Positions 26,487 to 63,665 of a stretch of DNA of 64,000 nucleotides are shown piece after piece. Positions within the stretch are counted from its first letter, which is position 1. The number at the start of each line of letters is the position of its first letter. The DNA is taken from positions 57,110,713 through 57,174,712 of the forward strand of contig NC_089272.1 of the NCBI RefSeq assembly GCF_963678975.1, in the 5' to 3' direction. Under the pieces are notes generated by a model. That model did not search any database, was not told the origin of the DNA, and saw only the letters and a program-made list of their open reading frames with translations. The position numbers and the translations under genes are program-made. This DNA is from Dysidea avara (taxonomy: Eukaryota > Porifera > Demospongiae > Dictyoceratida > Dysideidae).

Positions 26487-27629
26487 TTACAATTTTGTTT
26501 CGTCCATCACATTTTCAAGTTGGATTGGTTCATTTACACCATCGGTTGATTGCAGTTCTTCCTCCACCTTTGGCTCAAGCTGTTCACATCCACCAGGTAT
26601 ACATCCAGCTAACTCAAACATGTGAGGGAATCCCTTGGGAAGCCATTTTATCATTATAGTAAACAGAACACTTAAAAGTATTGTAACATACACACCATAT
26701 ATGGTTATGGATTGATCCATACCAATATTATGGTGATATTCTTCTGTTAGTCTTCCACAGTAATCTCGTAAGCCATCCATCACACAGGACCATGCATAGT
26801 GGTTGAGCCACTGACAGATTAACAAGGGAATAATGGAAATTTGAATCACAAATCTAATAATTACCAAAATAAGTTTAATTATGATTATGCAAGTGCATTT
26901 TCTTTTGATTGGAGCATTAACTTTTGGCTTGATTTTCAGTTTACTTCCATTAATGTGGCTAGTTGGGAAAATGCGTTCAAGATAAATAGGATAATGGCTG
27001 GTTAGTGTCTTTTGTTTCAGGATTTCCATCTTCCGATTCAAATTGTCATCGTCCATGTAGTATGTGCTTGCTACCAGCTTGATGAGTTCCTTCTTGAAAT
27101 ATCGTTTGTGCTTCTTCAGTCCTTTAGCTGCAGCATCAACTAATCTGCTAGTACCTTCATCATCATCCAATTTACAACAACTATGAAATGTCTTAAATCC
27201 ACCATAAATAAACAGAAATATTGCCCATATTACTGCAGTCCCAACCGTAATGATACTATAAAACCTTCTGTCACTTGGATCACAACTACACTGGGTCGAC
27301 AGAACAAAGCTTTCATCAGTGTGTTTCTCCCCGAATGCATTATAAAATGTATAAGCGAAGTTAAAAGTGACCACTACAACAAGTGCCACTTTAAACGGCG
27401 TGTCACCTAAAGCCTCCGACAGTATTCCCTTCAGAGAATCAATGTCATCGAAGTCCCCACCTCCCAAAGCATCTTCGATAGCTTCATTAGCAGCTTCGTC
27501 GTATAATTCATCATCTAAGGGGAGTATTCCCTTCAGAGTATCAATGTCATCGAAGTCCCCACCTCCCAAAGCATCTTCGATAGCTTTATTAGCAGCTTCG
27601 TCGTATAATTCATCTTCTTCTAAGGGCAT
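26487..27629 (-). CDS. Four-pass membrane protein, family B (B1)
   Basis: A single-exon frame of 380 residues, start ATG at 27629. Residues 1-70 are acidic and consist of a tandem duplication of 34 residues (ELYDEAAN...ALGGGDFDDIDTLKGIL, twice; 102-bp period in DNA). Four hydrophobic segments follow: VALVVVVTFNFAYTFY, IITVGTAVIWAIFLFIYGGF, a long one ending VIQISIIPLLICQW, and IYGVYVTILLSVLFTIMI. The loop between 1 and 2 has CSC then RRFYS; the loop between 3 and 4 has SCVMDGLRDYC. The basic loop 2-3 and the acidic C terminus are probably cytoplasmic. The same plan and residues occur in B2 (52287-54848). I recognise no named family. It is head to head with A1, 190 bp between start codons. No function is claimed. 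Confidence 0.85.
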   Translation of the reverse strand: MPLEEDELYDEAANKAIEDALGGGDFDDIDTLKGILPLDDELYDEAANEAIEDALGGGDFDDIDSLKGILSEALGDTPFKVALVVVVTFNFAYTFYNAFGEKHTDESFVLSTQCSCDPSDRRFYSIITVGTAVIWAIFLFIYGGFKTFHSCCKLDDDEGTSRLVDAAAKGLKKHKRYFKKELIKLVASTYYMDDDNLNRKMEILKQKTLTSHYPIYLERIFPTSHINGSKLKIKPKVNAPIKRKCTCIIIIKLILVIIRFVIQISIIPLLICQWLNHYAWSCVMDGLRDYCGRLTEEYHHNIGMDQSITIYGVYVTILLSVLFTIMIKWLPKGFPHMFELAGCIPGGCEQLEPKVEEELQSTDGVNEPIQLENVMDETKL

Positions 27630-27819
27630 ATCTCTCCTAGTCCACGAACAGTCCGCTTGTTTCTACACAATGATTGCGCTAAGGTTTGCGCATGCCTATT
27701 ATGACGTCACATTGCACAAGGGAATGCACCTAGGATTGTTGTTGGGTAGGCCGCTGTGCCACTTTTTTTTTGGTATATCAGGTAAAGGCACAAACACACA
27801 ATCAGAGTTTACAGAGGAC
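27630..27819. promoter_or_regulatory. Short shared promoter region of B1 and A1, with a CRE-like site
   Basis: The 190 bp between the two divergent start codons must hold both 5' leaders or a bidirectional promoter. It contains the palindrome TGACGTCA at 27702-27709, a full CRE/ATF site, next to GCGCATGC. In-frame upstream ATGs for A1 exist at 27670 and 27724. The site match is seen; its use is inferred. Confidence 0.5.
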
Positions 27820-28923
27820 ATGATCAATAGTTGCTGCCTCTTCAAGACGATAGGCGACGGTGTGACTCGCTGCTCGCGATGGCGTCTTCTCCCCGAAGTT
27901 CCCTATCTCGTCTACTTGACTGACTTAAAGGTGGTCTTTGTTGTAACAGCTGTATACACGTCCCTGATCTCCCAGTTCAGGAACCTAGCTGTGGGCGAAA
28001 CGGAGAGAAATTTAAATAGTGGAGTTAACTTCAAAATAAATAGCTACTGGTCTAATCATTCCATAGAAGGTGGAGTATCTGATTCAATCCTTTGGAAATG
28101 CAGAGAGGATTCTAGTTCACGTCACTTTTATCTATCACTATACGGCGGTTTGTTTAGCATATTCGGTTCTGTGGTAATCCTGTACTTCATATTTCGGTTA
28201 GCTATAGTAATTCTTACATGCAAGATAGCATGCCACATTGTCTACCCTGGTGTAAATGTGAACTATTTAGTATTGGTTGCAAACAGTTTGAAGAAGATTT
28301 ACCAGCTGAAGAAGAGACTGAGTGACGTGCACGTTAGGGACAAAATAGAGACACAAGAAGCTGTCATCACTCAAATAGCTCATGAATGGCAAAATGAATG
28401 GAAGATGATCACTGTTACATTAGGTGTTCAATATCGTATGTTGGTGAGATGGATCACAACCTTGTATGTAATCCCAATGATTGAGAATTGCATTATTCTT
28501 GCACTGTTGATATTGATATTAACTTCATTTGACGTGCATCCTTTGGGATGCTTTTTTGACATAGACATCCACTACGAAGAACTGACTAAAACCGTCACTT
28601 TACGGTTTTCAAATGTGGTACACAATTATCAGAAGGTTGCGGTAGTTGTAGCACTAATCATTTGTGTATTTTGGATTTTTCTGAAGTGGATTCAGAGCTC
28701 ACTGTTGCCTGATGCCTACCAAACAGATAACAGGTCTATTGATTATGGGTCCCACCTTTATCCTAATTCAGAAGACGAGGTTGTTGATCAAGTTGAAGAA
28801 GTGGAGGTTGTTGAAAAGCTGGATGGCAACCCACTTTCTCATGAAGACAATTCAGACATAGCGTCTCCTTTTAAGGAAATCACATCTGAATCAACAGGAA
28901 CTAGTTGTACAGTTAAATTTTGA
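27820..28923 (+). CDS. Four-pass membrane protein, family A (A1)
   Basis: 367 residues in one exon from the ATG at 27820. The open frame runs further upstream, but that part is antisense to B1. The 27820 start puts the first membrane segment at the same residue (about 37) as in A2, which supports it. Segments: VVFVVTAVYTSLIS (about 38-53), the YLSLYGGLFSIFGSVVILYF region, IIL-rich segment 3 ending LTSFDVHPLGC, and VAVVVALIICVFWIFLKW. An NHS glycosylation site lies in loop 1-2. SDSILWKCRE...RHFYLSLYG matches A2 closely. The C-terminal 80 residues are acidic (EDEVVDQVEEVEVVEKL). A truncated copy is at 34346-34900. No named family recognised. Confidence 0.88.
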   Translation: MINSCCLFKTIGDGVTRCSRWRLLPEVPYLVYLTDLKVVFVVTAVYTSLISQFRNLAVGETERNLNSGVNFKINSYWSNHSIEGGVSDSILWKCREDSSSRHFYLSLYGGLFSIFGSVVILYFIFRLAIVILTCKIACHIVYPGVNVNYLVLVANSLKKIYQLKKRLSDVHVRDKIETQEAVITQIAHEWQNEWKMITVTLGVQYRMLVRWITTLYVIPMIENCIILALLILILTSFDVHPLGCFFDIDIHYEELTKTVTLRFSNVVHNYQKVAVVVALIICVFWIFLKWIQSSLLPDAYQTDNRSIDYGSHLYPNSEDEVVDQVEEVEVVEKLDGNPLSHEDNSDIASPFKEITSESTGTSCTVKF

Positions 28924-29309
28924 TGATAAGTTTTAATGACATAAAATTATTAGATCTTCCAACCACACTTGTACTTAATTTTGTGCATGGATGTTCTGTG
29001 TAGGATGTTGTAGTAGTATAATATGGTAATGTTAAAGTCACATGATATATTCCATTAAAATGGTATGCAAAAGTTAATCCAAACAAATTATTTTAAATTT
29101 TAAGGAAAGTCAAGTCTAACAAATTAAATTAATTGAACACAACCTCTGTAGACCTACAAATGTGATGTGCATATAATGATATTACCCATGCAGTTATAGT
29201 ACAAATTATCAATTGCATGATCTCCATTGGCTATAACTCTTGTCTTCACCAAACCTATTGTTTTCCTTTTTGTATGTGGCACACCAATGATGTTAGTTGA
29301 AAGTTGAAA
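28924..29309. other. Downstream region of A1
   Basis: Non-coding; probably holds the 3' untranslated region. It matches 34813-35230 in copy 2 of the segmental duplication (GACATAAAATTATTA, GACCTACAAA(T/C)GTGATGTGC). Confidence 0.6.
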
Positions 29310-29640
29310 CTAGGGCTGATCACTGCAAATACCGGTACTCAAGTACTTGTTAAGGATTTTGGTACACAGATAGCATGCAAATTTGGTACTCGATTACTCA
29401 TTAAGATCACATGACCAAGATGTATTTGTCATTATAAAAAAGGTTATAGAGTTTGATGAGTGTAATTTAATCCACAATGCTTGTCAGTAACACTAACATC
29501 AGTGCTTTATAGCTACACTGTTATTACCGTTACTTTAAAAAGTTGTAAATTGTCCAGTATAAAATATCTCACATGGGTACTACAAGTATAGCTGGTAACT
29601 GCAGTATTCGTGAGTACTTGATCATTAATTTAGAGACTAA
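29310..29640 (+). repeat. Dispersed repeat G, copy 2 (uninterrupted)
   Basis: CTAGGGCTGATCACTGCAAA, GGTACTCAAGTACTTGTTAA and GTGAGTACTTGATCATTAAT are collinear with 18310-18990. It has a single TTGTCCAG and so serves as the empty site for the hAT-like MITE at 18498-18916. Confidence 0.75.
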
Positions 29641-31623
29641 CAATCCTGTGGTGTTTATTACCATAATTCAAATAATTAATACAGTAACTAGACCATGCCA
29701 CACTACTCAACGCTCGAAAATGATTTTAGTAACATGTTTCTGACTCCCTGCTACACAGTCTTATAGTGGGATAGTGACTAATAATAACGATGCTGAAGTT
29801 CATAATAAAATCAATTGTGGGTGCAATATGGTCAATATTGCAATTGGTAAAAGTAGTTTGTGTACCCATTTCTTTACTTTCATATTATTCAGAATGATGG
29901 TCAGGCTATTACACTGCCTTGAAGTATAGAGATGGGTACACTCATGACATGACAACCATTCAATTTGATTGTGAAAATTGCTATTAAAGTTTTCATACTA
30001 ACCTCAGAGTGTAGAACTTTACACAGTTTATAATTTTCATCCAGACCTAGATCTCTATTAATATTTATGCATACTTTAGATAGGGCCTGCGGTATTGCTC
30101 AAAACCTTTATTCAGTATATTAAAGTTATTACCTTGCATGGTATTGGTATTATAATTGCTCATGAATGGATATAAAGTTATTTGATTAATCACATGGGAA
30201 AAGTAAGTGGCAAAGCAAAAAGCATTAAAAATTTTATACTCAGCAGCTATAGCTATATACATGCAGTTTATTTTGATGCTACAACATACCTATAGCTAAC
30301 TTCTTATTTTCGTATGGAAAATTCTTACATGAAAATTTTTGCAAGATACTCTAATAGAGCAGTCATTCACGCAAATCATCGTATATACGTACATGAAAAT
30401 TTGTATCATAGTGCAAATATAAAATTATGGTAAAACTCTACTACAGTATACAGCTATTCAGTATTTTTGATATTAAAGTTGGTTTTGGTTATGAAGTCCG
30501 ATCCCATAATAGTATTGCTTAGATAATACCTTTAGGTGCAGTATGACTATAAATTATGCAGAGCCCTAACTTTAGAAAGTTAGTATTGAACACAGCATAT
30601 TATATTATGTTATACTCAACATTGTCATTGTATTGTAGCCCACACTTGATCACATTAACATCTTTATGGTATTAAAAATGTGTAATGTGTGCTGACTGCT
30701 CTATTAGGGTATTTTACCACTTTAATAGACTATAATTATCATTTTAAGTGCATTTCCATTCTCACCACCAGAATCAGAGATATCTAACCAATGTGTTTAT
30801 AGCATATCATAATTACACATGAGTCTAACATTGTAAAGTTGGGACTAAACTTTGTTTCCAAAACTTGCAAATATTATTATGCAAACTACGAAAATTCAGC
30901 ATCACAATGCACCTCACCATCACTTTAGCCATATGCATTTTGATATATGATGCTGCCCAGCCACAATGCTGATGAATTGTGCACAATAGATGCATGAGGG
31001 GTAAAGCCATCAAAAATCCATTATTTATGACAGAGCAATTACTACCTTGCTTTGGTCATGTGTCTCCACCTACGTACCATGAAGAATTAATTCTAACAGC
31101 TACAGTGACTCTATACATGTACAGCTCCAGCAGTCTAGGGGTAGGACAACTCTGAGCAAATCAACCTATTTCAGTATGAACGGATGATTTGTAGTATTGA
31201 AAGTGTTGATGAAATGGCACCCACTTCGTATAACTGGTCAAATAAAGATAAAATGATTTCACTGATGCTGGATGTTAGTCATTATAATACGAATATACCA
31301 GTGAAGTGTATAGACTACTAAGATTGTAAGGACATGATTTCCCACAAACAACATACACCACAACACACACTAAACTGCATGCATACAGTCTATTTGTAAG
31401 TGCATGCAAACACGTAGGACAAAAACTTGTAGCCTGCTACACATGCATACCAATAAACAGATCATCTCACAAGGAATGCTTCAGCTTTTGCAAAAATAGC
31501 AGACACAATGCACGTGTCATGTGAGGATCTGGTTGTCAGAAAGAAGTGGTCATTACTAAATATTTAAACAATATAGAATAAATAAATTACTCACAAAACT
31601 TATTAGCAGGTGTAAGGCCAATT
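29641..31623. other. No gene; duplicated 3' flank of the DDX10 copy
   Basis: Non-coding. Blocks match 45360-45850 (ACCATTCAATTTGAT, GTATACTTTAGAT versus GCATACTTTAGAT) and 46480-46880 (ATCTCACAAGGAA, TCACAAAACTTAT, GCAGGTGTAAGGCC). GACTGCTCTATTAGAG motifs are at 30344-30366 (reverse) and 30693-30714. Confidence 0.6.
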
Positions 31624-32322
31624 TAGTATAGCGGTACAACCAAAAAATTGTGCACTTTTTCATAAAGCCATGAAACTGTCCACATAAATAGTAGTCCTCA
31701 ATACATGTATTTTCAGATATAGTGCCATCACTGATTTGACCTTTGGTGACCTTTATGGCCATTTTGTACAGAAAATTGATCATTTTTGTCTTTAACTCCC
31801 TGAGGCAGTAATTAACTTGTTAAAACATGGTACCAAACAAACGATCTTGCTGATAGAAACAACTTGGTTTTTATTTGAAGTCAATAGGTGATTTCATTAC
31901 AAAGTTATGATCATTTGTACTAGCAGCAAAATCTGATAAATTTATGCATAATTAATTATCTGCCAGCAGGTAATAATTCACACCTCAAGGGCAGGTAAAT
32001 TTATCAGATTTTACAAATGATCATAACTTCGTAATGAAATCACCTATTGACTTCAAATGAAAACCAAGTTGTTTCTATCAGCAAGATCTTTTGTTTGGTA
32101 CCATGTTTTAACAAGTTAATTACTGCCTCAGGGAGTTAAAGACAAAAATGATCAATTAGCTGTACAAAAATGGCCGTAAAGGTCACCAAAGGTCAACTCA
32201 GCGATGGCACTATATCTAAAAATGCGTGTCATGAGGAGTACTATTTATGTGGAAAGTTTCATGGTTTTATGAATAAGTGCACAATAAATTATTGCCAATT
32301 TTGGGGCTACGCCGCTATACTA
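31624..32322. mobile_element. 699-bp fold-back element inserted at the stop of the DDX10 copy
   Basis: The ends TAGTATAGCGG and CCGCTATACTA are exact inverses, and the arms of about 320 bp are near-perfect inverse copies (TTGACCTTTGGTGACCTTTA, AACAACTTGGTTTTTATTTG and others). The intact gene reads GCCAATTGTTCATCC at the matching site (46882-46896). Here GCCAATT and ATTGTTCATCC lie on either side, a 3-bp duplication (ATT). The insertion replaces the last residues of the DDX10 copy by a stop (EDEQLV). Confidence 0.85.
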
Positions 32323-33875
32323 ATTGTTCATCCTCAATATAATTGTTATCTGTGTCTGAAGATTCTTCCTTTTCAACTTTACTTAAGCGAACAGACACTT
32401 CTTGCTCATCAGAGTCATCTGCAACTTTCTTGGGTGTGGGCTTCGACTTTAACCTCTTTGCTTTGTGTAAACTCCTAACTCTTTCTCTCTCTATTTTCTT
32501 ATCATCTTTGTCTCTCTTTTTCATCTCTTGCTTGACTTTGCTGACGTCTATTCCACCTTCAAAGTCTGACTCACTATCACGCTCTTCTTTACCAGCTAAG
32601 TGATCGTCATCATCAAACACTACGTGAGTGTTTAGCTTCAATTTCTTGTTGACAAGTTTCTTGGCCTGTGATATTTTTCTCTTCCTGGTTTCTTTAGTAC
32701 TGTCTTCAACAATGTCTTCTGTTGGATACATGATTTTCTTCACTGTAAGGAAGTTAAGGAAGTCTTCATCTTCAGTTTGTTTCTCATCTTGCATGAAGTT
32801 GAATGAAGTAGTACCCATCTCTGTCTCATCAGTTTCACTTTCAACATCATCAGCCTCCAATTCTACATCAGAATCAACATCACAATCTTTTGTGGTAAAT
32901 TTCTTTTCAGCCTTCTGTAAGAACCTTACATTAGGTGGTTGGACCAGACCTAATGACAAGGCGTACTCATTCATTGGTAGCAAATGTACATTAAATACTT
33001 CCTTGTTTGACTGCAAATAAACTGAACAGACATACGAAATAAAGCTCTTTTGGGCCCAATGTTTCATTTCACCATCCTGAGCACAGAAGGCTTCTAGTTT
33101 ACCCTGAATTGGCTGAAGCTTTTTTGGGTTGACCTCAATTTTGTTAATGGGGACCTTCTTGGCCTGTAGCTGTTCAACAAACTTCTCTTCTTCTGATGGT
33201 AAAAGAAATAAAAGTGCCTGGCCATCTTTCTCAAATCGAGCAGTCCTACCTGCTCTATGTACATATGTATTGGCATCTTCTGGGAAGTCAGCCTGAATTA
33301 CCCAATGAACAGCAGGAAAGTCTAACCCTCTTGCAGCAATATCAGTGCAAAACAGCACAGCAAACTCCCTACTACAGAAGTCATTATAAATTGCAACACA
33401 GCACAGTTGTTTTTGCTTTCCGTAAAGCGCCATCAGTGGCACACCAGGCCTCAAGTGATGAAGCGCTTCATAAATGAACTTTACTTGCTCACAACTTGAG
33501 AAGAAGACTATTGTTTTGGATTTGGTGTGATTATGAAGAAAAGAGTACAAAGCGCACAACTTCTGGTGGAGCTCACAAACAATGTAACTTTGGGCTAGTT
33601 GCTTTTTTTTGGTGTGATTGTTCCCTACATCTCATATGTAGAAATATACTTGGGATTCTTTAGACAAAGTCGTGCAAGATCTTGAACAGATTTTGTCTGG
33701 GTAGCAGAGTACAATAGTGTCTGTCTGTCCACAGGTAGGTTTTCAATGATAGCATTCATGGCTGTCTTAAATCCCAGATCTAATATGCGGTCAGCTTCAT
33801 CCAATACCAATATCTTCAAGTTTCCACAGTCAAAGTTAGGAGTCTCGTCCATGTGCTGCAGAAGTCTCCCTGATT
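32315..33875 (-). pseudogene. DDX10: DDX10 copy, 5'-truncated and frameshifted
   Basis: A close copy of the gene at 46855-48978 lacking the first 189 codons (Q motif, Walker A, motif Ia/Ib). It starts at MDETPNF, in the middle of the helicase core. DEAD, SAT, TDIAARG and HRAGRTAR are present. A T-run at about 33600-33610 is five bases longer than in the intact gene (GCTTTTTTTTGG versus GCTTTGG), shifting the frame between codons about 272 and 287. The 3' end is altered by the fold-back insertion. The remaining frame of over 400 codons is open, so the copy is young. It cannot make a working helicase because the ATP-binding N-terminal part is missing. Confidence 0.9.
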
Positions 33876-33876
33876 A

Positions 33877-34343
33877 ATGGTTTTTCTTAGCTCAGTATAT
33901 TATTGCAATGATGTACATGTGTAGTTAAGGGGCACGCTACTATTCATATGGCTTCAGATGTAATATGATATACTATATCATAATATATATCACAATAATT
34001 ACAATACACATTATATAAATCTTCACTTCATTGATGCAGATTTTTGGCTTTATTCAGCTACGTACAAAGGCTAGACAATAATTATTATATTTTTGTTCAT
34101 AGTTGATATTCTACAATGAATTAGTCTAATACCAATAAACAAGGAACTTGAAATACAAGTGTTTGAACAGCATGAAAAATAGCAGTAAACAATATTTTAG
34201 TACAGTTTTGACTACATGTGCAAATTACTATCCTGAATTAAATTCCATTACAGCACGATGTAAGCATTGCACTATTAATTGTACTGTATCATCACAAGTT
34301 ATATCATAGTGTATCATGTATTTCATTGCATTGTGATTATCGT
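33877..34343 (+). repeat. Dispersed repeat H, copy 2, at the duplication junction
   Basis: Collinear with 19063-19985 but without the 437-bp insertion found there. It lies exactly between the truncated DDX10 copy and the truncated family A copy, so it either mediated the duplication or was inserted at the breakpoint. Confidence 0.8.
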
Positions 34344-34345
34344 GA

Positions 34346-34900
34346 CGTGCCGTCATTACTCAAATAGCTCGTGAATGGCAAAATAAATGGAAGATGATCA
34401 CTGTTACATTAGGTGTTGAATATCGTATGTTGGTGAGATGGATCACAACCTTGTATGTAATCCCAATGATTGAGAATTGCATTATTCTTGCACTGTTGAT
34501 ATTGATATTAATTTCGTTTGATGTGCATCCTTTAGGATGCTTTTTAAACATCACTTTACAGTTCTCAAAAGTGGTACACAATCATCAGAAGGTTGCAGTA
34601 GTTTTAGCGGTAATTGTTTGTGTGTTTTGGATTTTACTGAAGTGGATTCAGAGCTCACTGTTGCCTGATGCCTACCAAACAGATAACAGGTCTATTGATT
34701 ATGAGTCCCACCTTTATCCTAATTCAGAAGATGAGGTTGTTGCTCAAGTTGAAGTCATGGAGATTGTTAATCAATTAAATAGAAAAACTGGATGGGAATC
34801 CACTTTCTCATGAATTCAGACATAGCATCTCCTTTTAAGGAGATCACATCTAGTTCATGGAATCAACAGGAAATTGGTGTGCAGTTTTTTTTTGATGAAT
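34346..34900 (+). pseudogene. Family A copy (A'), 5'-truncated
   Basis: The frame 34352-34813 reads as the second half of A1 (VITQIAREWQNKWKMITVTL and onward), including membrane segments 3 and 4, LISFDVHPLGC and LLPDAYQTDNRS. An in-frame deletion of 11 codons follows GCFL. Near 34780 extra bases shift the frame and it stops early. Segments 1 and 2 and the start are absent. It is the left end of copy 2 of the segmental duplication. Confidence 0.9.
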
Positions 34901-35269
34901 AGTTTTAATGACATAAAATTATTAAGTCTTCAGACCACACTTGCGTATATAAATTAATGTTGTATTTTGTGTAGGATGTTGAGTAATGTTAAAGTCACCT
35001 GGTATATCCATGAATATGGTATGCGAAAGTTAATCAGTTAATCTGAACAAATTGTGCACATAGGATAAGTTTAGACTGGTCATGTCTAACAAAATATTTA
35101 AACAAGCTTTTTACAACTTCTGTAGACCTACAAACGTGATGTGCATATAGCTAGCAGAGTTACAGTGCCATTAATTGATTCCCATTATAGCTAACTCTTG
35201 TCTTCACCTGCAACCCAATTGTTTTCCATGTCACACTGATGAATGATGTCAGTTGAAAGTTGAAACTAG

Positions 35270-35490
35270 GGCTGAATACTGCAAATACTCGAGTATTTGT
35301 GAAACATTTTGGTACTCGGATAGTAAAATTATTACTTGTTATGATAATGTGACCAAAATGTATTTTCCATTATAAATTGACACCACGAAGGCTGTATAGT
35401 TTTATTTGGTGTAATTTAATGGGTGTTGCTTGTCAGGAACTCTAACACTAGTACTTTAAACATTGTGTATCTTATTGTTGTTACTTGTAT
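35270..35490 (+). repeat. Dispersed repeat G, copy 3 (partial)
   Basis: CTAGGGCTGAATACTGCAAA and GTGTAATTTAATGGGTGTTG with CTTGTCAGGAACTC match 29310-29560. It is part of the duplicated flank of A1, not an independent insertion. Confidence 0.65.
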
Positions 35491-37356
35491 TTGTATCATT
35501 AACTCTCTAGACCAGGGATACGTATTTGAATAGAAACAATCCATTATTGTTTCAGCCTAGCTTATAGTTAAAACCAGCTCTATGGTGACTGCATAATCTT
35601 TGGTGCTTGTTACTACTGTACCCACAACTTCCCGGGTATACTGGAACAATGTAGTCTGCACGCATTGTGTGTGACTGTGTGTGTGTATAGTGTGTTCATA
35701 TATACCCTGTACTGTGTGATACATCATACTGTGACAATTTCTGCTTAGGTTTCTTGGCTCATAGTAAACACTTCATACGGCAGACTTTGCCTCCTGTACT
35801 TGCCCTCCAATGCCTAACTGGTAAAGCAGACAAACAATGCAGTATTATTATACTGCAATGGTTTGTGATAAAAGACTAGGATATAGGCCAAAAGTTTAAC
35901 AGGGCAAAATTTTAGATGTTACCAAAAATTGAAGTATTTTAGCAAAACTTCACTCATCAAAATTGTCCAATTCATAAAAAATTCCCTCTTTAAATTTTAC
36001 ATTTGTGGTATTCAATGACATCAGTATTGAAGTATGTTGTCAAAAATTTCCTGTGTCAGACATTTGCAATATAGCTATGGTATACAACAACATCATAATA
36101 GTCCGGTAGAATAAGTGGCTTTTTTGGCTGAACCTTGCAATAATTATGGTCTATAGTTTATTTTATGCCACAAAATATCTCTCCATACTATGTATGGACT
36201 ACTCAAAACCACCTGCTGGACCTCCATCAGCATTGGAATATTAACTCAGGAAGTTCTAGTATTTTGGTCATTCCATGCTAAATTATCAAAGAAATTAAAA
36301 TGTTAGCCCACTCTTTTCAAATTTCTTTAAAATTGGCACAAAGACAGTGGATCATGAGTCAAAGTCATACATTAAGTTTCATTTGACTCCTTTGATCACA
36401 TTCCGTGTTATGCCTGTTTGCTTTACTGGTATTTTACTGCATTTGTGATTGCACAATTCTTCTAATATTCAACTATACAATGAAACCTGTCCGACTGGAT
36501 CACTGTATAATAAGGTCACCTGATTTAAACTGACCATTGTAGCAGTCTCCTAATTGTGTCATTTTGTGTACACCGTGACTTTAACACGTTTAATGCAACC
36601 ACCTCCTTAATAAGGCAGGCCTGGCAGAGGTGACTGGAATGAACAAGTTCACTATTACTTTTATGCTGAGTGATTAAGTAATTTTATACTAGTTAGATTA
36701 ATGTAATCTCATTAACTAAAAATAGTTTTAGATGTATATAAATTGTCTAAGTTCTGTTTTCAACATCAGCTTGACTTTCCGCCTTGAATAGAGCACATGT
36801 AAAGTAGTAAATGATGGGATCCATGCCAAAAATTAATAGCCAAGCTGCAGACAGAATAGCCAAACTGTGAAGTAAATCACCAAGAGATTGCTCCAATATT
36901 TAAAATTTCAGCTAGGTCAATACTTTTTACTTTTAGTTTATAGCTAACTCTGAATGATACAGTTGTAGTACCACTACACCCTTTGCATAGCTTGGATTTG
37001 TTGTAACCGAGCACTGTCCCTGTCTACCACTGCATTTCATAAGAACATCAGTTGTATATGTATGTACATGTGCGCATTCAGCATGCACTATTATGAATTA
37101 TTTGTAAAACCATTTTTTGTACCGCATATGTGTGCCACACACGTACATACGGCAGGCTGTTGCCGACCCCAATACATGCAGTTGATAAATGCCAATAGAG
37201 GAAATCACTAGTGGAACAAATAGGTGGCAGCAGGAAAGACTTTTAAGGTCTAATTTTGTTTATGCAATATAATGTAATGGATGATCTTAAAGGCTGAACT
37301 TGTGTCTTCCACACGCAATTGCCAATTGTATGAATAACTTTGTTTCTGAAAATTAT
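35491..37356. other. No gene seen
   Basis: Intergenic AT-rich sequence within copy 2 of the segmental duplication, with no counterpart found in copy 1. No coding exon recognised. Confidence 0.45.
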
Positions 37357-37685
37357 ATCTAATCCAAAACAGCCAAGCTGTAAAAACACAGTGCGGCCCT
37401 CAAAAAGGCTATGGTGAAAAAGATGTGAAATCCAAGGTGGCGGCCAAGAAATGGCTGTGATGGTAGGTTAATGGTAAAAAACTTGATAACGACAATTCAG
37501 GTGAATTTTTGTGCCGCTTGGTTTTGGCAAAAAAATCACCTAAATTGCCGTTATTAAAATTTTTACCATTAACCTACCATCACAGCCATTTCTTGGCCGC
37601 CACCTTGGATTTCACATCTTTTTTCACCATAGCCTTTTTGAGGGCCGCACTGTTTTTTTACAGCTTGGCTGTTTTGGATTAGATT
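37357..37685. mobile_element. Fold-back element with about 145-bp arms
   Basis: TCTAATCCAAAACAGCCAAG, GTGCGGCCCTCAAAAAGGCT, TGGCGGCCAAGAAATGGCTG and GGTAGGTTAATGGTAAAAA on the left are mirrored in order on the right with few differences around a 40-bp centre. It is GC-richer than its surroundings. No coding capacity. Confidence 0.85.
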
Positions 37686-37849
37686 TCATTTCTTTTTGTA
37701 TTTGTATACCATAGGCCAGCTTTGGGACTTTTTTAACCTGTCTTTTTTTTCTTTACCACAGGAAGAAGAAAAGATGAAGCAGATGTACTTTAAATATCTG
37801 ATTTTATCAGTAAATGTACAAATTATATATATAATACATATATTTATTA

Positions 37850-40425
37850 CAGAACTCTCCATGGTGGTTTCTTTGTAACTGAACACTCTACAAGGTGACT
37901 TCTTCTTGCTGCCCTCTCTACAGGGTGAATTGTTTCTTCTAGCTGATCTCTCTACAGGGTGATTTGTTTATAGCTGAACTCTCTACAGGTGATTTCTTTG
38001 CAGCTGAACTATCTACATGATGATTTCTTTGTAACTGAACTCTTTACAAGGTGACTCCTTCTAGCTGATCTTTCTACAGGGTGATTTGTTTGTAGCTGAA
38101 CCCTCTACAAGGATACTTCTTCTAGCTGATCTCTCTACTGGGAGATTTGTTTGTAGCTGAACTCTCTACAGGTGATTTGTTTGCAGCTGAACTCTCTACA
38201 TTATGGTTTCTTTGTAGCTGAACTCTCTACAAGGTAACTTCTTCTAGCTTATCTCTCTACAGGGAGATTTGTTTGTAGCTGAACTCTCTACAGGTGATTT
38301 GTTTGTAACTGAACTCTTTACAAGGTGACTCCTTCTAGCTGATCTTTCTACAGGGTGATTTGTTTGTAGCTGAACCCTCTACAAGGATACTTCTTCTAGC
38401 TGATCTCTCTACTGGGAGATTTGTTTGTAGCTGAACTCTCTACAGGTGATTTGTTTGCAGCTGAACTCTCTACATTATGGTTTCTTTGTAGCTGAACTCT
38501 CTACAAGGTAACTTCTTCTAGCTTATCTCTCTACAGGGAGATTTGTTTGTAGCTGAACTCTCTACAGGTGATTTGTTTGCAGCTGAACCCTCTACATGAT
38601 GGTTTCTTTGTAATTGAACTCTCTACAAGGTAACTTCTTCTAGCTGATCTTTCTACAGGGTGATTTGTTTGTAGCTGAACTCTCTACAGGTGATTTGTTT
38701 GCAGCTGAACTCTCTTCATGATGGTTCTTTGTAGCTGAACTCTGTACAAGGTAATTTATTTTAGCTGATGTCTCTACAAGGTCACTAGTTTGTAGCTGAA
38801 CTCTCTACATGATGGTTTCTTTGTAACTGAACTCTCTACAAGGTGACTCCTTCTAGCTGATCTTTCTACAGGGTGATTTGTTTGTAGCTGAACTCTCTAC
38901 AAGGAAACTTCTTCTAGCTGATCTCTCTACAGGGAGATTTGTTTGTAGCTGAACTCTCTACAGGTGATTTGTTTGCAGCTGAACTCTCTACATAATGATT
39001 TCTTTGTAACTGAACTCTCCACAAGGTAACTTCTTCTAGCTGATCTTTCTACAGGGTGATATGTTTGTAGCTGAACTCTCTACAGGTGTTTTGTTTGCAG
39101 CTGAACTCTCTACATGATGGTTTCTTTGTAGCTGAACTCTCTACAGGTGATTTGTTTGCAGCTGAACTCTCTACGTGATGATTTCTTTGTAACTGAACTC
39201 TCCACAAGGTAACTTCTTCTAGCTGATCTTTCTACAGGGTGATTTGTTTGTAGCTGAACTCTCTACAATGAAACTTCTTCTAGCTGATCTCTCTACAGGG
39301 AGACTTGTTTGTAGCTGAACTCTCTACAGGTGATTTGTTTGCAGCTGAACTCTCTACATGATGGTTTCTTTGTAGCAGAACTCTCTACAAGGTAACTGAT
39401 GTCTCTACAAGGTCACTAGTTTGTAGCTGAACTCTCTATATGGTGGTTTCTTTGTAGCTAACTGAACTCTCTACAAGGTGACTTCTTCTAGCTGATCTTT
39501 CTAGAGGGTGATTTGTATGTAGTTGAACTCTCTACAAGGAAACTTCTTCTAGCTGATCTCTCTACAGAGAGATTTGTTTGTAGCTGAACTCTCCACAGGT
39601 GTTTTATTTGCAGCTGAACTCTCTACATGATGGTTTCTTTGTAGCTGAGCTCTCTACAAGGTAATTTCTTCTAGCTGATCTTCTTCCAGGGCGATTTGTT
39701 TGTAGCTGAACTCTCTACAAGGAAACTTCGTCTAGCTGATCTCTCTACAGGGAGATTTGCTTGTAGCTGAACTCTCTACATGTGATTTGTCTGCAGCTGA
39801 ACTCTCTACATGATGGTTTCTCTGTAGCTGAGCTCTCTATAAGGTAACTTCTTTTAGCTGATGTCTCTACAAGGTCACTAGTTTGTAGCTGAACTTTCTA
39901 CATGATGGTTTCTTTGTAACTGAACTCTCTGCAAGGTGACTTCTTCTAGCTGATCTCTCTACAGGGTGATTTGTTTGTAGCTGAACTCTCTACAAGGAAA
40001 CTTCTTCTGGCTGATCTCTCTACAGGGAGATTTGTTTGTAGCTGAACTCTCTACAGGTGATTTGTTTGCAGCTAAATTCTCTACATGATGGTTTCTTTGT
40101 AGCTGAACTCTCTACAAGGTAACTTCTTCTATTGATCTCTCTACAGGGCGGTTTGTTTGTAGTTGAACTCTCTACAGGTGATTTGTTTGCAGCTAAACTC
40201 TCTACATGGTAGTTTCTTTGTAGCTGAACTCTACACGGTGATTTCTTCTAACTGATCATGAACTCCCTACAAGGTAAATTTTTCTAGCTGATCTTTCTAC
40301 AGGGTGAATTGTTTGTAGCTGCTCTCTCTACAGGGTGACTTGTTTCTAGCTGATCTCTATACAGGTTACTTGTTTCTAGCTGATCTCTTGAATTCTCTTC
40401 AGGGTGACTGCTCTATTAGGATGAC
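37850..40425. repeat. Satellite array 2 (same 30-bp unit as array 1, opposite strand)
   Basis: Units such as GTAGCTGAACTCTCTACAGG+TGATTTGTTT are the reverse complement of array 1's unit. Unit types (ACAGGTGATTTGTTTG, ACATGATGGTTTCTTTG, ACAAGGTAACTTCTTCTAG, ACAGGGAGATTTG) alternate in a higher-order order of about four units. A segment starting at 38037 recurs almost unchanged at 38311, a recent 274-bp duplication. No unique spacers. Confidence 0.93.
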
Positions 40426-49630: not shown

Positions 49631-49633
49631 GGA

Positions 49634-52286: not shown

Positions 52287-54848
52287 TTACATAATACAGT
52301 TTGCACCAGCTGATTTTGCACTTTTGGAACAAGGAAACCATCGTAGTATTGCAGTTGATAAAATTGCCATTAATAAACAGCAATAAAAGGTAAAACCCAA
52401 AGCCGCTTTATCTAATCCAAGCCGATACTGATTAAAATCATTTCTGCAGTAAACGTCATTTGTGACACAGATCCAGGAGTATGTGCCTAATACTTGAAAC
52501 AGCAATAAGGGTACTAGTGCTAGTTGAGCAAATAGCCGCAATATAACCAGAATGGGATACAAAAAGAATCCCACACCAGCGCAGGTCACATCTGCCGCCA
52601 TTATCACAATATTGTCTTGTTCATCAATGTCAGTATACAATCCTTCTGGCCTGAGGTCAACAAAGGAACCGAGAAAACCCTTCTGTTTATTTTCATCATC
52701 ATCATCACTGCCAGATGTTAACCCTAAATGTGAGGAATTAGAATTAGTATCTTCTTTAGCAACAACTGAACTCTGTACTTTTGTATCTGTGGCAGGGGAT
52801 TTATGGTCAGTTGCATCTTTGTGCTTAACAATGGAAGATTTCTGATTAGTAACCTTTGTAGTAGTGTCTGTTACTTCATGCTTTGCATTCAACTTGGTGC
52901 TCTTTGCTTTTCCAGAACTTTTAGCAACCCTAGTATCTTCATTCTGAGTAAAATCCTCTAAATCAGAGTCTTCATCTGAAAAGTCAGGTTCGATAACAAT
53001 CGTGGGTAATTCTGCTGCACCATCATAAGAAGAAGCTTGTAACAATGGTTGAGCTTCTGATTCCACATTACTCTCATCACCAGTGTTTGTTCCATTTTCA
53101 GCATCTCCAAGAATGTCAACAAAAGCAGGAAGTGTATGACTGTCATCCTCAATAGCAGCCCCCACAGAGTACACCTTGTAAAATTCAAGCCATAAAAAGT
53201 TTTCATAGTGTTTTAAACGTTGCAGTGTTTTACGATCAGCAGAAGAAAGAGTTCTGGTCTGTGATTTTTTAGCTTTACCTTTAGCATTAGAAGATCTTTT
53301 TTTCTTTGGTAGCGATTCTTCGAATTCGATTAACTGCATCTTCTTCATTGACCCAGAAAGTGTTGATTTGTTTAATGTGGCAGTATTTGTAAAATTTCTT
53401 GCTGCTGAGGTGTCAGTTTTATTCATTAACCTTTTGGATACGTCATTTTTTGGAAGTGGTGTATTCTGCAGCTGAACTGCATTTTCAAGCATTCCCTGTA
53501 GTGACAATTCAGGTGGGCCTTGATTTGATACCATGGCATCCACAGCATCCATTGCTGTTTCAGTAGGATTTTCCTTAACCGTGGACACTAATTCAGTTGC
53601 CTTGTCTAGCATTGATGATGTTGTCGGGTTTGATTCAACAGCAGAAACAGCAAGCTCCATTGCTTTACTACTCAATAATTCCACTGGATCTTCCCTAGCT
53701 GCTTCCATACCCGCTTCTGCCAAGTCCAGCGCTGTTGATAACATTGATCTGTTAGCTTTCTGTTGTGTCTTGTCTGAGTTCTGCATCTGTTTTGATATGA
53801 TATTGTCAGCTACACCCACAGATGCTGCAAGTAAGGCTTCACTAGGGTTCTCCTTCACAGCAGCTACAAATTCCACAGACTTTGCAAGAATTGATGAGGC
53901 TTGGTTAGGTTGTGTCTTATCATCGACAACCTCCATTGCTTTAGTAAGCATCACATCTGCAGGGTTTTCCTGTATCACTTTGGCACCGCTGGCAGCCAAA
54001 TCTGTCAGTAGAGAACCAGCAGCAGTTTGCTTGGCTGCTTCTACTTTTTCTTCAAGTGGCTTCACAACTTTACTAAGTATAGAATCTTGCCTTGCCATAT
54101 CTATCAATTCTGTTGCTTTTTGCAGCATTGTTGGCTTAGATTCAGCATTGTCATCATCGTTGTCATCATCATCGTCATCATTGTCAGTTTCAGCACTACC
54201 ATCTTGCAATACTTCTAACTTACGCGTCACTGCATTGTTCACAGATGCCATTGTCTTTGTAAGTATCGTATCTATGGGATTCTCCTTCATCTGCTTAATC
54301 CCATCATCGACTACTTGCAGAGTCTCCACCCCGTCATCTATGATATCCAAAGTTTTAGTGAGCATCGATTTCACTGGTATCTTCATGGCTGCTTGAGCTC
54401 CTGCTTCAACCGAGTCAATTGTTCTCTCTAAAAATGAAGTAGCATGTTCTTGAGTCTCTGAAGATTGCGATGACACTTTAGTTTGGTATTTTTCTGGGTG
54501 CCTAGCTCTGTCTTTGAATCTCCAGAATTTATATGCATCCCAAATTGTGAGTACAACAAAACCAACAAACCAGATGAATAAACCGATGATGATAACACTT
54601 CGATAGTAGACTCGGTGCAATATGGGACATCTACAAGTGGAAGAATTTTCTTCCCTAGAATTGCCGCCAACAATCGAATTGAAACCAGTAAGGAATACAT
54701 AAAAGCAAAATAATATACTCAAACCAAGAATTAACTGAGGATCATTCAGAGCCCCGGAAAGTACTCGTTTCCAGTTTTGGAATTGCTCTTTTGTCTTTTC
54801 TCCAATGGAGTCAATCTTGTCTCTTGCTTTGGTAACTCCAGATTCAAC
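52287..54848 (-). CDS. Four-pass membrane protein, family B (B2), main exon
   Basis: The coding frame runs from a splice acceptor (CACCGTTTAG, cut before 54848) to the TAA at 52287-52289, 853 codons, with no ATG near its 5' end, so it needs an upstream exon. It opens with WKRVLSGALNDPQLILGLSI, matching B1's LKGILSEALGDTPFKVAL. Segment 1 and the loop with CRC...HRVYYRS lead to segment 2 (VIIIGLFIWFVGFVVLTIW). A loop of over 550 residues follows, with a D/N run and repeated ENPxxxxLxKAMExV-like units, then Lys/Ser-rich and acidic stretches. Segment 3 (LALVPLLLFQVLGTYSWICV) with a loop ICVTNDVYC and segment 4 (LGFTFYCCLLMAILSTAIL) end the protein. It shares plan and cysteines with B1. Function unknown. 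Confidence 0.85.
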   Translation of the reverse strand, partial: VESGVTKARDKIDSIGEKTKEQFQNWKRVLSGALNDPQLILGLSILFCFYVFLTGFNSIVGGNSREENSSTCRCPILHRVYYRSVIIIGLFIWFVGFVVLTIWDAYKFWRFKDRARHPEKYQTKVSSQSSETQEHATSFLERTIDSVEAGAQAAMKIPVKSMLTKTLDIIDDGVETLQVVDDGIKQMKENPIDTILTKTMASVNNAVTRKLEVLQDGSAETDNDDDDDDNDDDNAESKPTMLQKATELIDMARQDSILSKVVKPLEEKVEAAKQTAAGSLLTDLAASGAKVIQENPADVMLTKAMEVVDDKTQPNQASSILAKSVEFVAAVKENPSEALLAASVGVADNIISKQMQNSDKTQQKANRSMLSTALDLAEAGMEAAREDPVELLSSKAMELAVSAVESNPTTSSMLDKATELVSTVKENPTETAMDAVDAMVSNQGPPELSLQGMLENAVQLQNTPLPKNDVSKRLMNKTDTSAARNFTNTATLNKSTLSGSMKKMQLIEFEESLPKKKRSSNAKGKAKKSQTRTLSSADRKTLQRLKHYENFLWLEFYKVYSVGAAIEDDSHTLPAFVDILGDAENGTNTGDESNVESEAQPLLQASSYDGAAELPTIVIEPDFSDEDSDLEDFTQNEDTRVAKSSGKAKSTKLNAKHEVTDTTTKVTNQKSSIVKHKDATDHKSPATDTKVQSSVVAKEDTNSNSSHLGLTSGSDDDDENKQKGFLGSFVDLRPEGLYTDIDEQDNIVIMAADVTCAGVGFFLYPILVILRLFAQLALVPLLLFQVLGTYSWICVTNDVYCRNDFNQYRLGLDKAALGFTFYCCLLMAILSTAILRWFPCSKSAKSAGANCIM

Positions 54849-56124: not shown

Positions 56125-56427
56125 AAACAAGTGCATAGAAAAATTTGGAATTTTCAACTACAGTAGGGACCATAGCACATCGATAAAAAGTACTGAAACA
56201 AGTTGGAGTAGTGCACGATATTAAATCACAGTAAAACAAAAAGAAGTGTAATATCCCTACTGTGCTCAAGATACCATAATGGAAATGCACAGTAGGGATA
56301 TAACACTTCTTATTGTTTCACTGTGATTTAATATCGTGCACTACTCCAACTTGTTTCAGTACTTTTTATCGATGTGCTATGGTCCCTACTCTAGCTGAAA
56401 ATTCCAAATTTTTCTGTGTACTTGTTT
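56125..56427. mobile_element. Fold-back MITE, family F, copy 2
   Basis: Arms of about 140 bp are inverse: TAAACAAGTGCATAGAAAAA, AGTACTGAAACAAGTTGGAG, TAGTGCACGATATTAAATCA and AATATCCCTACTGTGC. The order matches 7916-8218. The two copies differ in arm details, so each arm pair has stayed more similar to itself than to the other copy. Confidence 0.85.
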
Positions 56428-56458
56428 GTTAACTTTTTGTAATAGTAATTATTATGAC

Positions 56459-58875
56459 TGGTGAACCCACGTATACCGCATCTGAAATGGCACCGCGCGC
56501 CCCAATTATCGTCTGAAAAGTGAAGTATCCATTACGCTTCGTTGTCAGCTTTGTTCAACCCGTTACACAGCATTTCGAATCAAGAACCTTTCGAAAAGCA
56601 CCTCTGTAATCCAGGGTCGCATACCAAAAGAAAGGGTGCCGCGCCCCCCGGTTATATCAATTATCGTCTGAAAAGTGAAGTATCCATTACGCTTCATTGT
56701 CGGCTATGTTCAACCCGTTACACAGCAGTATGAATGAAGAACTGAAAAGCACCTCTGCTATCAAAATAGCCACTATGACAAATACGGATGATATCCGTTA
56801 CAAAGGGAAGCCATCACGTGCTATCGCCAAATCGACATGTTTCGCTGTCAGCAAAGATGAATGGGACACAAAGGAGGACACTGGTAAGTCCACGAAAAAT
56901 GTATTGTACGTACTGCGGTATGCCAAAAAGGCACCTGTCGGATAGGGTTGAGCGATACTACCGTTTTAGTGATATATCGCGATATTTTGAAAGTATCAAT
57001 ATTGCTATATTTTGTTATTAACTATCGTGATACCATGCCTGTACATTACTGTCATTAAAAAGCCATTTGTTATGAAGTACTAAGCTAAGAATCCTTGTAA
57101 GTCATAACCTGGTTACCCCTGCAGAGAGGTGTGAACACCATAACATAACTTCAAAGCATGTGTTACAATAACTGTTACTGTAAACATAGTTGACAGTGGC
57201 TAGTTTGATGCTACTTTTGAAGACTTCCTGCAGGAATACTGAGGAATACACTATGTAGCACCAGCTATGATTGACATATTTGTAAGTATCGTGAACTATT
57301 CAGTATCGTGAATAGTGGCTTTAGTATCAATCGTGATACTAAAATGGCAGTATCGCTCAGCCCTACTGTCGGACTGAAGCGACATAGAACAGTGAAAAAA
57401 ATCAAGACCGTAGCCTTAGCTGTTATCGAGTTACGCTTGTCTGAAGGCATCAGTCAGTTACTCAGTCAGTCAGTCACTAGAAAATTCCGTTAAATAAATT
57501 ATTTTTAAAATTCCGTAGCAACTTGTTGAAAGTGTTTCGGGTCGATCTGAAAGCTTGTTTGGGCTTAGTTTTACCTAACCAATACTGCCTCATCGTCGCC
57601 AGGGGAAATTAAGGCTGCTTTGTGGGTGATATTATATCGTGGGCCATGCCTACTCCTTTGTGGTCCCTACTATGCAGTTACTATCGTACTGTATGATTAT
57701 CACCCGGCCCTAAACCACCACCTAAATAATCATATTGTAATTCAATAGAATGTGTAGTAGTTGTTGTGCTGGGATACCATTTTGTTTATAATACTGTAAC
57801 ATCCAATTTCTAACTGGCCATTACAGCTAGGGCATTGCATATGCAGATGACAGACTCACAGTGTAAGTTACATGAGGTCATAAAGCAATCATACGGTAGA
57901 ACCCCACAATAATGGACATATTGAGACCAACAAGTTTTGATCCATTTTTGCTCCAATAAAGATGCTGTCTGGTACATGTAGAAATGTATAGCCTGGGACC
58001 AAATCTTTGCTGTTTTCTCTATTGTGCATCCTAAGAGGTTCACTGTACAGAAAACAGTGTCCTCGGTCAAAATGAATTACCATATAACCTAAATATTTCG
58101 AGGGAGAAAAGTTTTGCCGTTTTCAGGGTTTTGGAGGTATCAGCAAAAAATTTATCCTTGAAATACATTAGATCTCTAATATGTACATTTTGGGATTGTA
58201 TGAAAATTTTTTTATTTTTAGCTACATTGCTCAACCTTGCAAATATTGTCCCTTGGCTATCATACAGTATGATAGTACTGTATAGTAGGGACCACAAAGG
58301 AGTAGGCGTGGCCCACGAAATAACATCACCCAAAAACCAACCTCAATTTCCCTGACGACGATGAGGCAGTATTGGTTAGGTAAAACTAAGCCCAAACAAG
58401 CTTTCAGATCAACCGGAAATGCTTTCAACAAGTTGCTACAGAATTTTAAAATTTTTTTTATTTAATGGAATTTTCTACTGACTGGCTGAGTAAGTAACTG
58501 ATTGACTGATGCCTTCAGACAAGCATAACTTGATAACGGCTAAGGCTACGGGCTTGGTATACCGCAGTACATACAATGCATTCTTCATGGACTTAACAGT
58601 GTCCTCCTTTGTGTCCCATTCACCTTTGCTGACTGCAAAAAGTGTCGATGTGGCGGTAGCATGTGATGGCTTCCCTTCGTAATGGAAATTGTCCGTATTT
58701 TTCATAATGGCTATTTTGTTAGCAGAGGTGCTTTTCGAACAGTTCTTGATTCGTAATGCTGCGTAACTGGTTGAATATGGCTGACAACGAAGCGTAATGG
58801 ATACTTCACTTTAATTGATATAGCTGGGGCACGGCACCATTTCAGATGCGGTATTCGTGGGTTCACCAGTCAGAT
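56459..58875. mobile_element. 2.4-kb element with long inverted arms
   Basis: CTGGTGAACCCACGTATACC with GCATCTGAAATGG on the left is mirrored by CCATTTCAGATGCGGTATTC with GTGGGTTCACCAG on the right. The arms (about 56459-57700 and 58255-58875) remain inverse over many blocks: GTGAAGTATCCATTACGCTT, TGGGACACAAAGGAGGACAC, CTTGTTTGGGCTTAGTTTTA. A 153-bp part of the left arm is tandemly repeated (56507 and 56660). The inner borders are the GTATAGTAGGGAC repeat in opposite orientations. The left arm carries the hAT-like insertion at 56943-57365. Confidence 0.75.
56943..57365. mobile_element. 423-bp hAT-like MITE nested in the left arm
   Basis: TAGGGTTGAGCGATACTACC and the inverse of the right end (TAGGGCTGAGCGATACTGCC) are the terminal repeats. 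An exact 8-bp duplication, CTGTCGGA, lies at 56935-56942 and 57366-57373. It contains TATCGATA-like words as the element at 18498-18916 does. Confidence 0.92.
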
Positions 58876-58979
58876 TTCAGCTTCGATGTGTTTATTTGTT
58901 CTACATAACAACTTTTTGCTGGGCTACTTAACAAGATTGGTAAGCTAGCATTTGTACACAAGACCATATATATATGCAC

Positions 58980-59495: not shown

Positions 59496-59523
59496 ATATG
59501 CACTAGCACTTCAGCCACAGATA

Positions 59524-62353: not shown

Positions 62354-62570
62354 TTTTCAGTGTTGCTGGTCTAAGTTGTCCCTCAATCACGAGCTCAAAC
62401 GCTACTCCTGAGACCTCACCTCAGACATGGACATCGCCCATGCATGGCCAATCAACTTTATATTAATTGCGTGCTCTAATTTTTCACGTGACATTTTTAT
62501 AAAATTCTGATCTTGTGTACGTATACTGCTCGGCTCTGACCACCTCAGTATTAGCTATGCGTTAGGTAGA
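62354..62570. promoter_or_regulatory. Short shared promoter region of A2 and (proposed) B2, with CCAAT and E-box
   Basis: The stretch has CCAAT at 62448-62452 and the palindrome TCACGTGA (E-box) at 62484-62491. It lies immediately upstream of A2 and of the proposed B2 first exon, a position equivalent to 27630-27819, where a CRE palindrome is found instead. The motifs are seen; function is inferred. Confidence 0.45.
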
Positions 62571-63665
62571 ATGCGACTGAGGCTAAAAGTGAAGGCACCG
62601 TCTGGAGCGGTGGGAGACCCAAAAAGACACGCCAAAGAGGTATCGCGATTATCCAATTTTCTCCTTATCGATATCAGAGTTTTGTTTATTGTCGTCTCCG
62701 TGTATACAACCGTGGCTGCTGTGATCTCGACTGCTGCTCATAACGAAGCAACGAAAGACACCACCAGCGAAAGAGAATTCAACATAACTGATAGGCCTGA
62801 ACATATGGATGTCATCGTGAATGAAGTATCCAATGCTATCCTATGGGACTGCAGAGCGAAGTCTGTTACACGAAGATATTACAAATCTCTGTATGGATTA
62901 CTGTTCATGTCATTTGCAATGATTGTATTGATATTTATTGGAGCACGGTTGACTGTAATGTGTGGCTGGAGGTCCAGACTGAGTCACAACCTACACAACA
63001 TTTTGTGGCGACTGGTGTTGATAAAGAGATTGAAACAGCTGGTGATACGTTACGGTGCAAATGACCCTCGGACTAAAGAGAAAGCTGAGCTTTATTATAA
63101 ACAGTGGGATAGCAAGCAACAAGAAAAGGTTCACTGGACGATATCGGCAGTTCCTTACTTTGAGGCTCTTTTCCTAGTACTTGCTCTACCATTCATATTA
63201 ACTTCCTATGACATTCATCCATTGGGATGTGTGGTAGGTCCTGATGAGGACTCTATTCAGTACTTTAATGATACCGGCAAAGTTGAACTACCGTTTCATG
63301 AAAGTTTGTTAGTATATCAGAAGTTTGCTCTTGGTGCTTCCATGGTGCTAATGACTCCGATTGCTATCTTTGGGTTTATCCTTGTTTGGAGATACAAGAG
63401 AATCACTAGAGGAATGGGTAAGGAGGTAGACAAAATAGCTGGTAGGATTGAAGATGACGGTGCACCAACTAGTGGTTTTCGTAACAAGCTAGGTCTTGCG
63501 TATGGAGTGGCAAAAGCAGTTGTGAATGAAACGATGGGAGGATTGAGGGATGCAATGCAAACAGAGATCCCAATGGAGGACTTGAACAAAACACTCAGTG
63601 CTCGTCTTTATGAGACTGATGAACTAATTGAGGAAGGTAATGATGAAGATACCACCACTGTATGA
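62571..63665 (+). CDS. Four-pass membrane protein, family A (A2)
   Basis: 364 residues, one exon, first ATG at 62571. Membrane segments lie at about 37-55 (VLFIVVSVYTTVAAVIS), 106-130 (KSLYGLLFMSFAMIVLIFIG), 193-212 (AVPYFEALFLVLALPFILTS) and 250-274 (KFALGASMVLMTPIAIFGFI). Loop 1-2 has an NIT glycosylation site and C94 in SNAILWDCRAKSVTRRYYKS. Loop 3-4 has SYDIHPLGC (C220) and NDT. The long basic loop 2-3 and the C-terminal tail (amphipathic, then acidic TDELIEEGNDED) would be cytoplasmic. It aligns with A1 over its whole length, with the same start-to-segment distance. Sharing of the C...R-x-(F/Y)-Y motif with B1 and B2 points to a common ancestor. No named family recognised. Confidence 0.9.
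   Translation: MRLRLKVKAPSGAVGDPKRHAKEVSRLSNFLLIDIRVLFIVVSVYTTVAAVISTAAHNEATKDTTSEREFNITDRPEHMDVIVNEVSNAILWDCRAKSVTRRYYKSLYGLLFMSFAMIVLIFIGARLTVMCGWRSRLSHNLHNILWRLVLIKRLKQLVIRYGANDPRTKEKAELYYKQWDSKQQEKVHWTISAVPYFEALFLVLALPFILTSYDIHPLGCVVGPDEDSIQYFNDTGKVELPFHESLLVYQKFALGASMVLMTPIAIFGFILVWRYKRITRGMGKEVDKIAGRIEDDGAPTSGFRNKLGLAYGVAKAVVNETMGGLRDAMQTEIPMEDLNKTLSARLYETDELIEEGNDEDTTTV

Follow-up and report, generated by a model that had tools for sequence, protein, structure and literature searches.

A 64,000-nucleotide stretch of contig NC_089272.1 (C1:57110713-57174712 in the 550.8-Mb, 108-contig host assembly), here called the window, carries two pairs of genes for four-pass membrane proteins, B1/A1 and B2/A2. 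Here, we show that these genes belong to two families, A and B, whose members recur as neighbors at many places in the host genome, were duplicated together, and are both under purifying selection. Recurrent pairing and joint copying suggest that A and B proteins work as one unit, and we propose, at roughly even odds (about 0.5), that they are anciently related to each other and serve as the two subunits of a single membrane complex at the cell surface.

The four window genes are genuine coding genes and lie where the initial annotation had put them, apart from small corrections of their starts. B1 (26487-27629, minus strand) encodes 380 amino acids and A1 (27820-28923, plus strand) encodes 367; a longer A1 open reading frame from 27442 runs antisense over B1, and we judged this start spurious and used 27820. 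B2 (52287-54848, minus strand) is open over 853 codons. An AG resembling a splice acceptor directly precedes its open frame, and a first exon was not found. A2 (62571-63665, plus strand) encodes 364 amino acids. Hydropathy bears out the four hydrophobic segments (transmembrane segments TM1 to TM4) of each protein, and the loop cysteines are those noted earlier: A1 and A2 have a single Cys in each of the two short loops, between segments 1 and 2 (loop 1) and 3 and 4 (loop 2), whereas B1 has CxC and C-x8-C and B2 has CxC and C-x6-C in these positions. A1 and A2 are 27% identical over 266 amino acids (E 2.5e-24), and B1 matches B2 with E 8e-14 across TM3-4 and E 0.001 across TM1-2. The N-terminus of B1 contains a 102-bp tandem duplication, and the 2-3 loop of B2, about 660 residues long, contains six degenerate repeats centered on ENP or a variant of it (window 52600-54464). 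The motif ahead of segment 2 that had been described for all four proteins is indeed common to them, albeit with a spacing of exactly six rather than six to eight residues and with the final Tyr always, not usually, present. In this form, C-x6-R-x-[FY]-Y, it matches four times in the 127,996 six-frame residues of the window, once per gene and nowhere else; family-wide, the Cys and a Tyr are constant and the Arg is variable.

Queries with A2, A1, and B1 matched 43, 33, and 48 stretches of the host assembly, which holds about 28 A loci and a fragment of A1 in the window (A1'), i.e., about 29 A places; member counts are lower bounds. We read 24 A-B sets, comprising both window pairs and those at L029-L053; they are spread over four contigs (C1, C2, C7, and C12). 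Whether homologs elsewhere are also arranged head to head had been named in the initial annotation as a test of the pairing, and this arrangement was found in 21 of the 24 sets, the other three having both genes on one strand. Among the 21, the chosen start codons are 120-444 bp apart in 11 pairs, and in six further pairs, with a frame edge or cut replacing the start, the spacer measures 126-811 bp; the list comprises neither L032, L039, and L047 nor B2/A2, which is the exception. Both window pairs are divergent as proposed, but the gap between the start codons is 190 bp in B1/A1, whereas in the other pair 7.7 kb with repeat elements lie between the B2 exon and A2, so that B2/A2 is divergent by order only. 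The same-strand sets, all of them in the A1 subgroup, are L046, L049/L050 (34 kb apart, C2:10.72/10.75 Mb), and L051/L052 (4 kb apart). Stops, frame changes, or introns break A or B in L032, L039, L042, and L047, B in L041 and L048, and A in L040. Left out of the sets were the A places at C1:57229510, C1:57196503, C1:55938981 (internal stops), and C1:22771936 (E 3.55), the window fragment, and the B-only places at C1:55931391, C1:56337797/56339978, 56187273, 56220978, and 56107405. The B place at C1:55931391 shares its strand with the A piece at 55938981, and at least one of the omitted places would reduce the head-to-head fraction.

The 20 pairs in which both partners were usable, that is, all sets except L032, L039, L042, and L047, were taken for a comparison of A and B trees. 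The distance matrices of the two families correlated with a Mantel r of 0.951, a value reached in none of 5,000 permutations, and 13 of 17 splits were common to both trees (null mean 0.17, maximum 3). Nearest neighbors agreed in 13 of the 20 pairs, and the three same-strand pairs, including the one spanning 34 kb, held matching places. Since the trees agree, A-B pairs were copied as units, and they offer an instructive example of joint evolution in two families of membrane proteins. The ratio of nonsynonymous to synonymous substitution rates (dN/dS) was 0.13-0.52 in eight comparisons among A copies or among B copies, a ninth being saturated; thus, selection keeps both proteins.

The same data could arise if A and B merely shared a bidirectional promoter and were copied together by closeness, their proteins never assembling. 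We regard this as an improbable reading, albeit the best of the alternatives. Pairs copied as blocks would show matching trees without any contact between the proteins, and the arrangement alone is ordinary, considering that in the sponge Amphimedon 11,379 genes are arranged head to head at distances within 1 kb (PMC4773876). The bidirectional pairs described there resemble A and B in the divergent placement of genes within 1 kb, and Nrf-1 elements are mentioned among the motifs enriched in their promoters (PMC4773876). A/B pairs differ from them in that the partners are related membrane proteins and that the same arrangement was found 21 times. Linkage alone fits poorly with the repeated pairing of the same two families across deep divergence (A members are 17-92% identical to one A member), with the probable kinship of A and B themselves, and with the matching tree places that the C2:10.72/10.75 Mb pair keeps across its 34 kb.

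This kinship emerged from profile comparison. The window sequences alone aligned with E 0.006-0.007; their score of 26.98 narrowly exceeded that of every one of 300 shuffles (maximum 26.78). The family alignments matched with E 0.0024, or 0.0004 once gap-rich columns were removed. The latter match had a z of 5.4, was equaled in 0 of 200 shuffles, and extended over 42 columns, in which the loop-1 Cys and TM2 of the two families line up. Judged from these sequence matches, A and B are probably ancient paralogs.

Family alignments of 19 A and 17 B members revealed which residues are constant. In A, these include L-W-x-C-R-x2-S-x5-Y-x3-Y ahead of TM2 and D-x5-C following TM3; in B, they include C-x-C...Y and W, followed by P, Y-x3-C...C, Y and W. 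Two cysteines are invariant in 19/19 A members (one per outer loop) and four in 17/17 B members (two per loop, spaced CxC in loop 1 and C-x6-9-C in loop 2). The conserved cysteines of loops 1 and 2 probably form a disulfide joining the outer loops. Both extra cysteines of B are missing from A and are therefore probably bonded to each other, as a second disulfide. N-glycosylation sequons occur in loop 1 of 14/17 A and 9/19 B members and in loop 2 of 12/17 A members and 1/19 B members, counted with a text pattern that missed 2/19 A and 1/20 B and with rough loop edges. The 2-3 loop is basic in A1, A2, and B1, and charge and outer-loop sequons would thus place it inside. Consequently, A and B are both predicted to be four-pass proteins in which two loops face outward, whereas the termini and the long 2-3 loop are internal. 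Both outer loops of A are probably N-glycosylated, which would count against gap-junction docking; N-glycosylation of the outer loops reportedly prevents docking of pannexins (PMC9816575, PMC8769644). By analogy with pannexins, A would favor a non-junctional channel.

In the mechanism that we propose, the two genes of a pair would usually be transcribed away from each other, starting in a spacer some hundreds of bases long, so that A and B would be made at the same time and form a hetero-oligomer. In the most speculative part of the proposal, this oligomer would be a non-junctional channel of the large-pore type, like those of pannexin or LRRC8, not a cell-cell junction, a suggestion drawn from the layout of the proteins. 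One may go further and suppose that A and B contribute half each to an obligately heteromeric channel of a new class, which would have no sequence relationship to innexins, connexins, CALHM, or LRRC8 and which this animal lineage would have expanded to more than 20 gene pairs, each keeping its own matched partners by co-duplication; this extension is tentative, and we consider it rather unlikely. Several observations weigh against a common A-B complex or its channel nature. Matching trees mean that pairs travel together and are no proof of protein contact, since tight linkage alone yields them. The shared promoter is dispensable, given that three sets have lost the divergent order and that in one of these A lies 34 kb from B. 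Several members, including B2, have a near-neutral or acidic 2-3 loop, so that charge gives partial support to the placement of this loop inside. Under the controls described below, no sequence relationship to a channel family held up, and large-pore channels are not known to have a loop like the 660-residue one of B2.

Within Pfam, NCBIfam (window proteins only), PDB, IMG/VR, and prokaryote contigs, A and B appear to be unnamed families. Searches of the window proteins against Pfam and NCBIfam gave no A or B match at curated cut-offs. In PDB, phmmer returned one match each for A2 and B1 (E 1.7 and 1.5); hmmsearch found no match to the window profiles and, with family profiles, none in one search and three matches, with E 0.33, 0.64, and 1, in the other, which we judged to be chance. 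No A or B match was found in IMG/VR and prokaryote contigs. Pfam matches of B to Choline_transpo, Myelin_PLP, 7tm_1, DUF2417, and others (E 0.0002-0.005) never involved more than 2 of 17 members and that of A was confined to DUF2140 to 4 of 19 (best E 0.0022), and both were likewise ascribed to chance. No Pfam or PDB family thus fits A or B consistently. A description of such a paired family was not recognized in the literature covered, a scope outside which most subscription papers and bioRxiv preprints fell.

Remote relationships were assessed by hhalign profile comparisons scored against block-shuffled controls. The innexin/pannexin profile consisted of INX-6, INX2, and PANX1. As positive controls, LRRC8A matched innexins with a z of 8.3, and the host genome's own innexins matched the innexin/pannexin profile with a z of 23. 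Neither CALHM1 with Cx26 nor Cx26 with innexins was linked in these controls, and relatives alike in nothing but their fold can thus be missed by profile comparison. B matched the decoy PMP22 with a z of 4.0 (0/30 shuffles). PLP1 scores were reached in 4/30 shuffles for B and, over 15 columns, in 0/30 for A (z 1.7).

A and B might instead be adhesion, recognition, or sensory proteins, that is, clustered, expanded, and glycosylated surface partners in adhesion or allorecognition with a role like that of tetraspanins or claudins. This is unlikely in our view, somewhat more so than mere linkage. It would suit the clustering of 18 of the 28 A loci in one stretch (C1:55.8-57.23 Mb) and the sequons common in the outer loops of A. 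Against it, the Cys signatures of tetraspanins and claudins were not seen by eye in A or B, and claudin-1 (CLDN1) scores were reached by 15/30 (B) and 13/30 (A) shuffles. CD81 was null for A (7/30) and gave a z of 2.7 for B (0/30) over 21 columns. In addition, the copies are under purifying selection.

We consider it quite unlikely that A and B belong, as highly diverged members, to the innexin/pannexin/LRRC8 superfamily, even though the layout is the same. Innexins and pannexins (PF00876) have, like A and B, four passes, two short Cys-bearing outer loops, and a long inner 2-3 loop, a layout to which hydropathy, charge, and sequons point in A and B. Different innexin or pannexin subunits co-assemble, as proposed for A and B, and the outer loops of pannexins are glycosylated (PMC9816575). 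Two spaced cysteines per outer loop distinguish innexins and pannexins from A with one and from B with CxC and C-x6-9-C, and the recurring A-B gene pairs set A and B further apart. PF00876 was not among the Pfam families listed (25 of 30) for the 17 B members, nor among those listed (again 25 of 30) for the 19 A members. The score with the innexin/pannexin profile was reached by 14/30 (A) and 13/30 (B) shuffles and that with the host genome's own innexins by 5/40 (A) and 24/40 (B). LRRC8 proteins (PF12534), which form volume-regulated anion channels from obligate plus partner subunits, share with A and B the four passes and a large inner loop and differ by their leucine-rich repeats; neither these repeats nor PF12534 were among the Pfam families listed for A or B. 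A matched LRRC8A alone with a score of 28.8 and a z of 4.4-4.7 (0/30 and 1/150 shuffles), over a region that in either protein starts at the end of TM3 and covers loop 2 and TM4. We rejected A as an LRRC8 relative, because with LRRC8A, B, and C together 24/100 and 22/60 shuffles reached the score, and we treated this signal as chance like that of B with the decoy PMP22. Connexins (PF00029), likewise four-pass proteins with an inner loop and with cysteines in their outer loops, have three cysteines per loop. No profile link to A or B was found, and 22/30 (A) and 2/30 (B) shuffles reached the Cx26 score. Least of all do we favor B as a remote relative of CALHM (PF14798), a very improbable reading that draws on the loop-1 CxC and the pair of loop-2 cysteines of 17/17 B members, and of B only, which resemble the CxC before TM2 of CALHM1, 2, and 4 and the four-Cys pattern of CALHM, and that we rejected because 8/30 (B) and 4/30 (A) shuffles reached the CALHM1/2/4 score, no CALHM family was among the Pfam families listed for the 17 B members, and the 2-3 loop of CALHM is short.

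The host genome encodes what are, by sequence, divergent innexins. Seven open frames of 350-418 amino acids match Innexin PF00876, five of them above the Pfam cut-off: L054 (C9:10.65 Mb), L055, L057, L058, L059, and L060 (C8:23.38-23.65 Mb), and L056 (C2:48.05 Mb). Their loop 1 resembles that of pannexins (C-F...V-N-x-[FY]-C), and the match to the innexin/pannexin profile has E 1.2e-8. An eighth match (E 3.19) contains a stop, and a search for innexins in 14 control genomes gave no match. If the host is a sponge, as is probable, these genes contradict the lack of innexins reported for sponges (PMC6391747, PMC9816575, PMC10280926), in which no gap junctions have been reported either (PMC10280926). 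The existence of novel channel families has been predicted in animals that have no known ones (PMC6391747). The large, paired, and conserved four-pass family described here constitutes a concrete candidate set, each pair of which lends itself to tests of its partner rule, co-expression, and pore activity.

The B1/A1 spacer (27630-27819, 190 bp) is a putative bidirectional promoter. It contains the palindromes GCGCATGC at 27688 and TGACGTCA at 27702 (stretch 27688-27709). TGACGTCA occurs four times in 219,925 bases (window and L029-L053), three times in A1-type spacers, and it was absent from the flanks read of the same-strand copies with one mismatch allowed. Both palindromes are also present in two more A1-type spacers (p44 and p45), and the distance between them is below 60 bp in the B1/A1 spacer alone. 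As p44 and p45 are recent copies of each other, we set the palindromes aside as shared spacer elements, and they are a lead only.

A1' (34349-34813, plus strand), overlooked in the initial annotation, is a fragment of A1 comprising TM3, TM4, and part of the tail. It is 79% identical to A1, with 13 codons differing synonymously and 21 nonsynonymously, and adjoins a truncated copy of a DEAD-box helicase gene (32322-33872). A full helicase gene with DEAD, helicase-C, and SPB4-type C-terminal domains, which we take to be DDX10, lies at 46858-48996. The resulting order of A1, helicase fragment, A1 fragment, and full helicase is best explained by a tandem duplication with its breakpoint inside both A1 and the helicase gene (28360-35458, 32322-48996); a repeat (33947-34346) is located at the duplication junction.

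Long inverted-repeat elements lie between B2 and A2 (window 56126-58872), with relatives near 660, 5457, and 7900. Elsewhere in the window, two large minisatellite arrays (8607-9895 and 37852-40388) consist of 30- and 61-base units that share the wording CAGCTACAAACAA and its complement; a search for a minisatellite word in IMG/VR gave no match, nor did Rfam and ARAGORN for the window. Pieces of TRIM-like genes at 2790-4375 contain filamin and NHL repeats above the Pfam cut-off, along with weakly matching RING and B-box domains.

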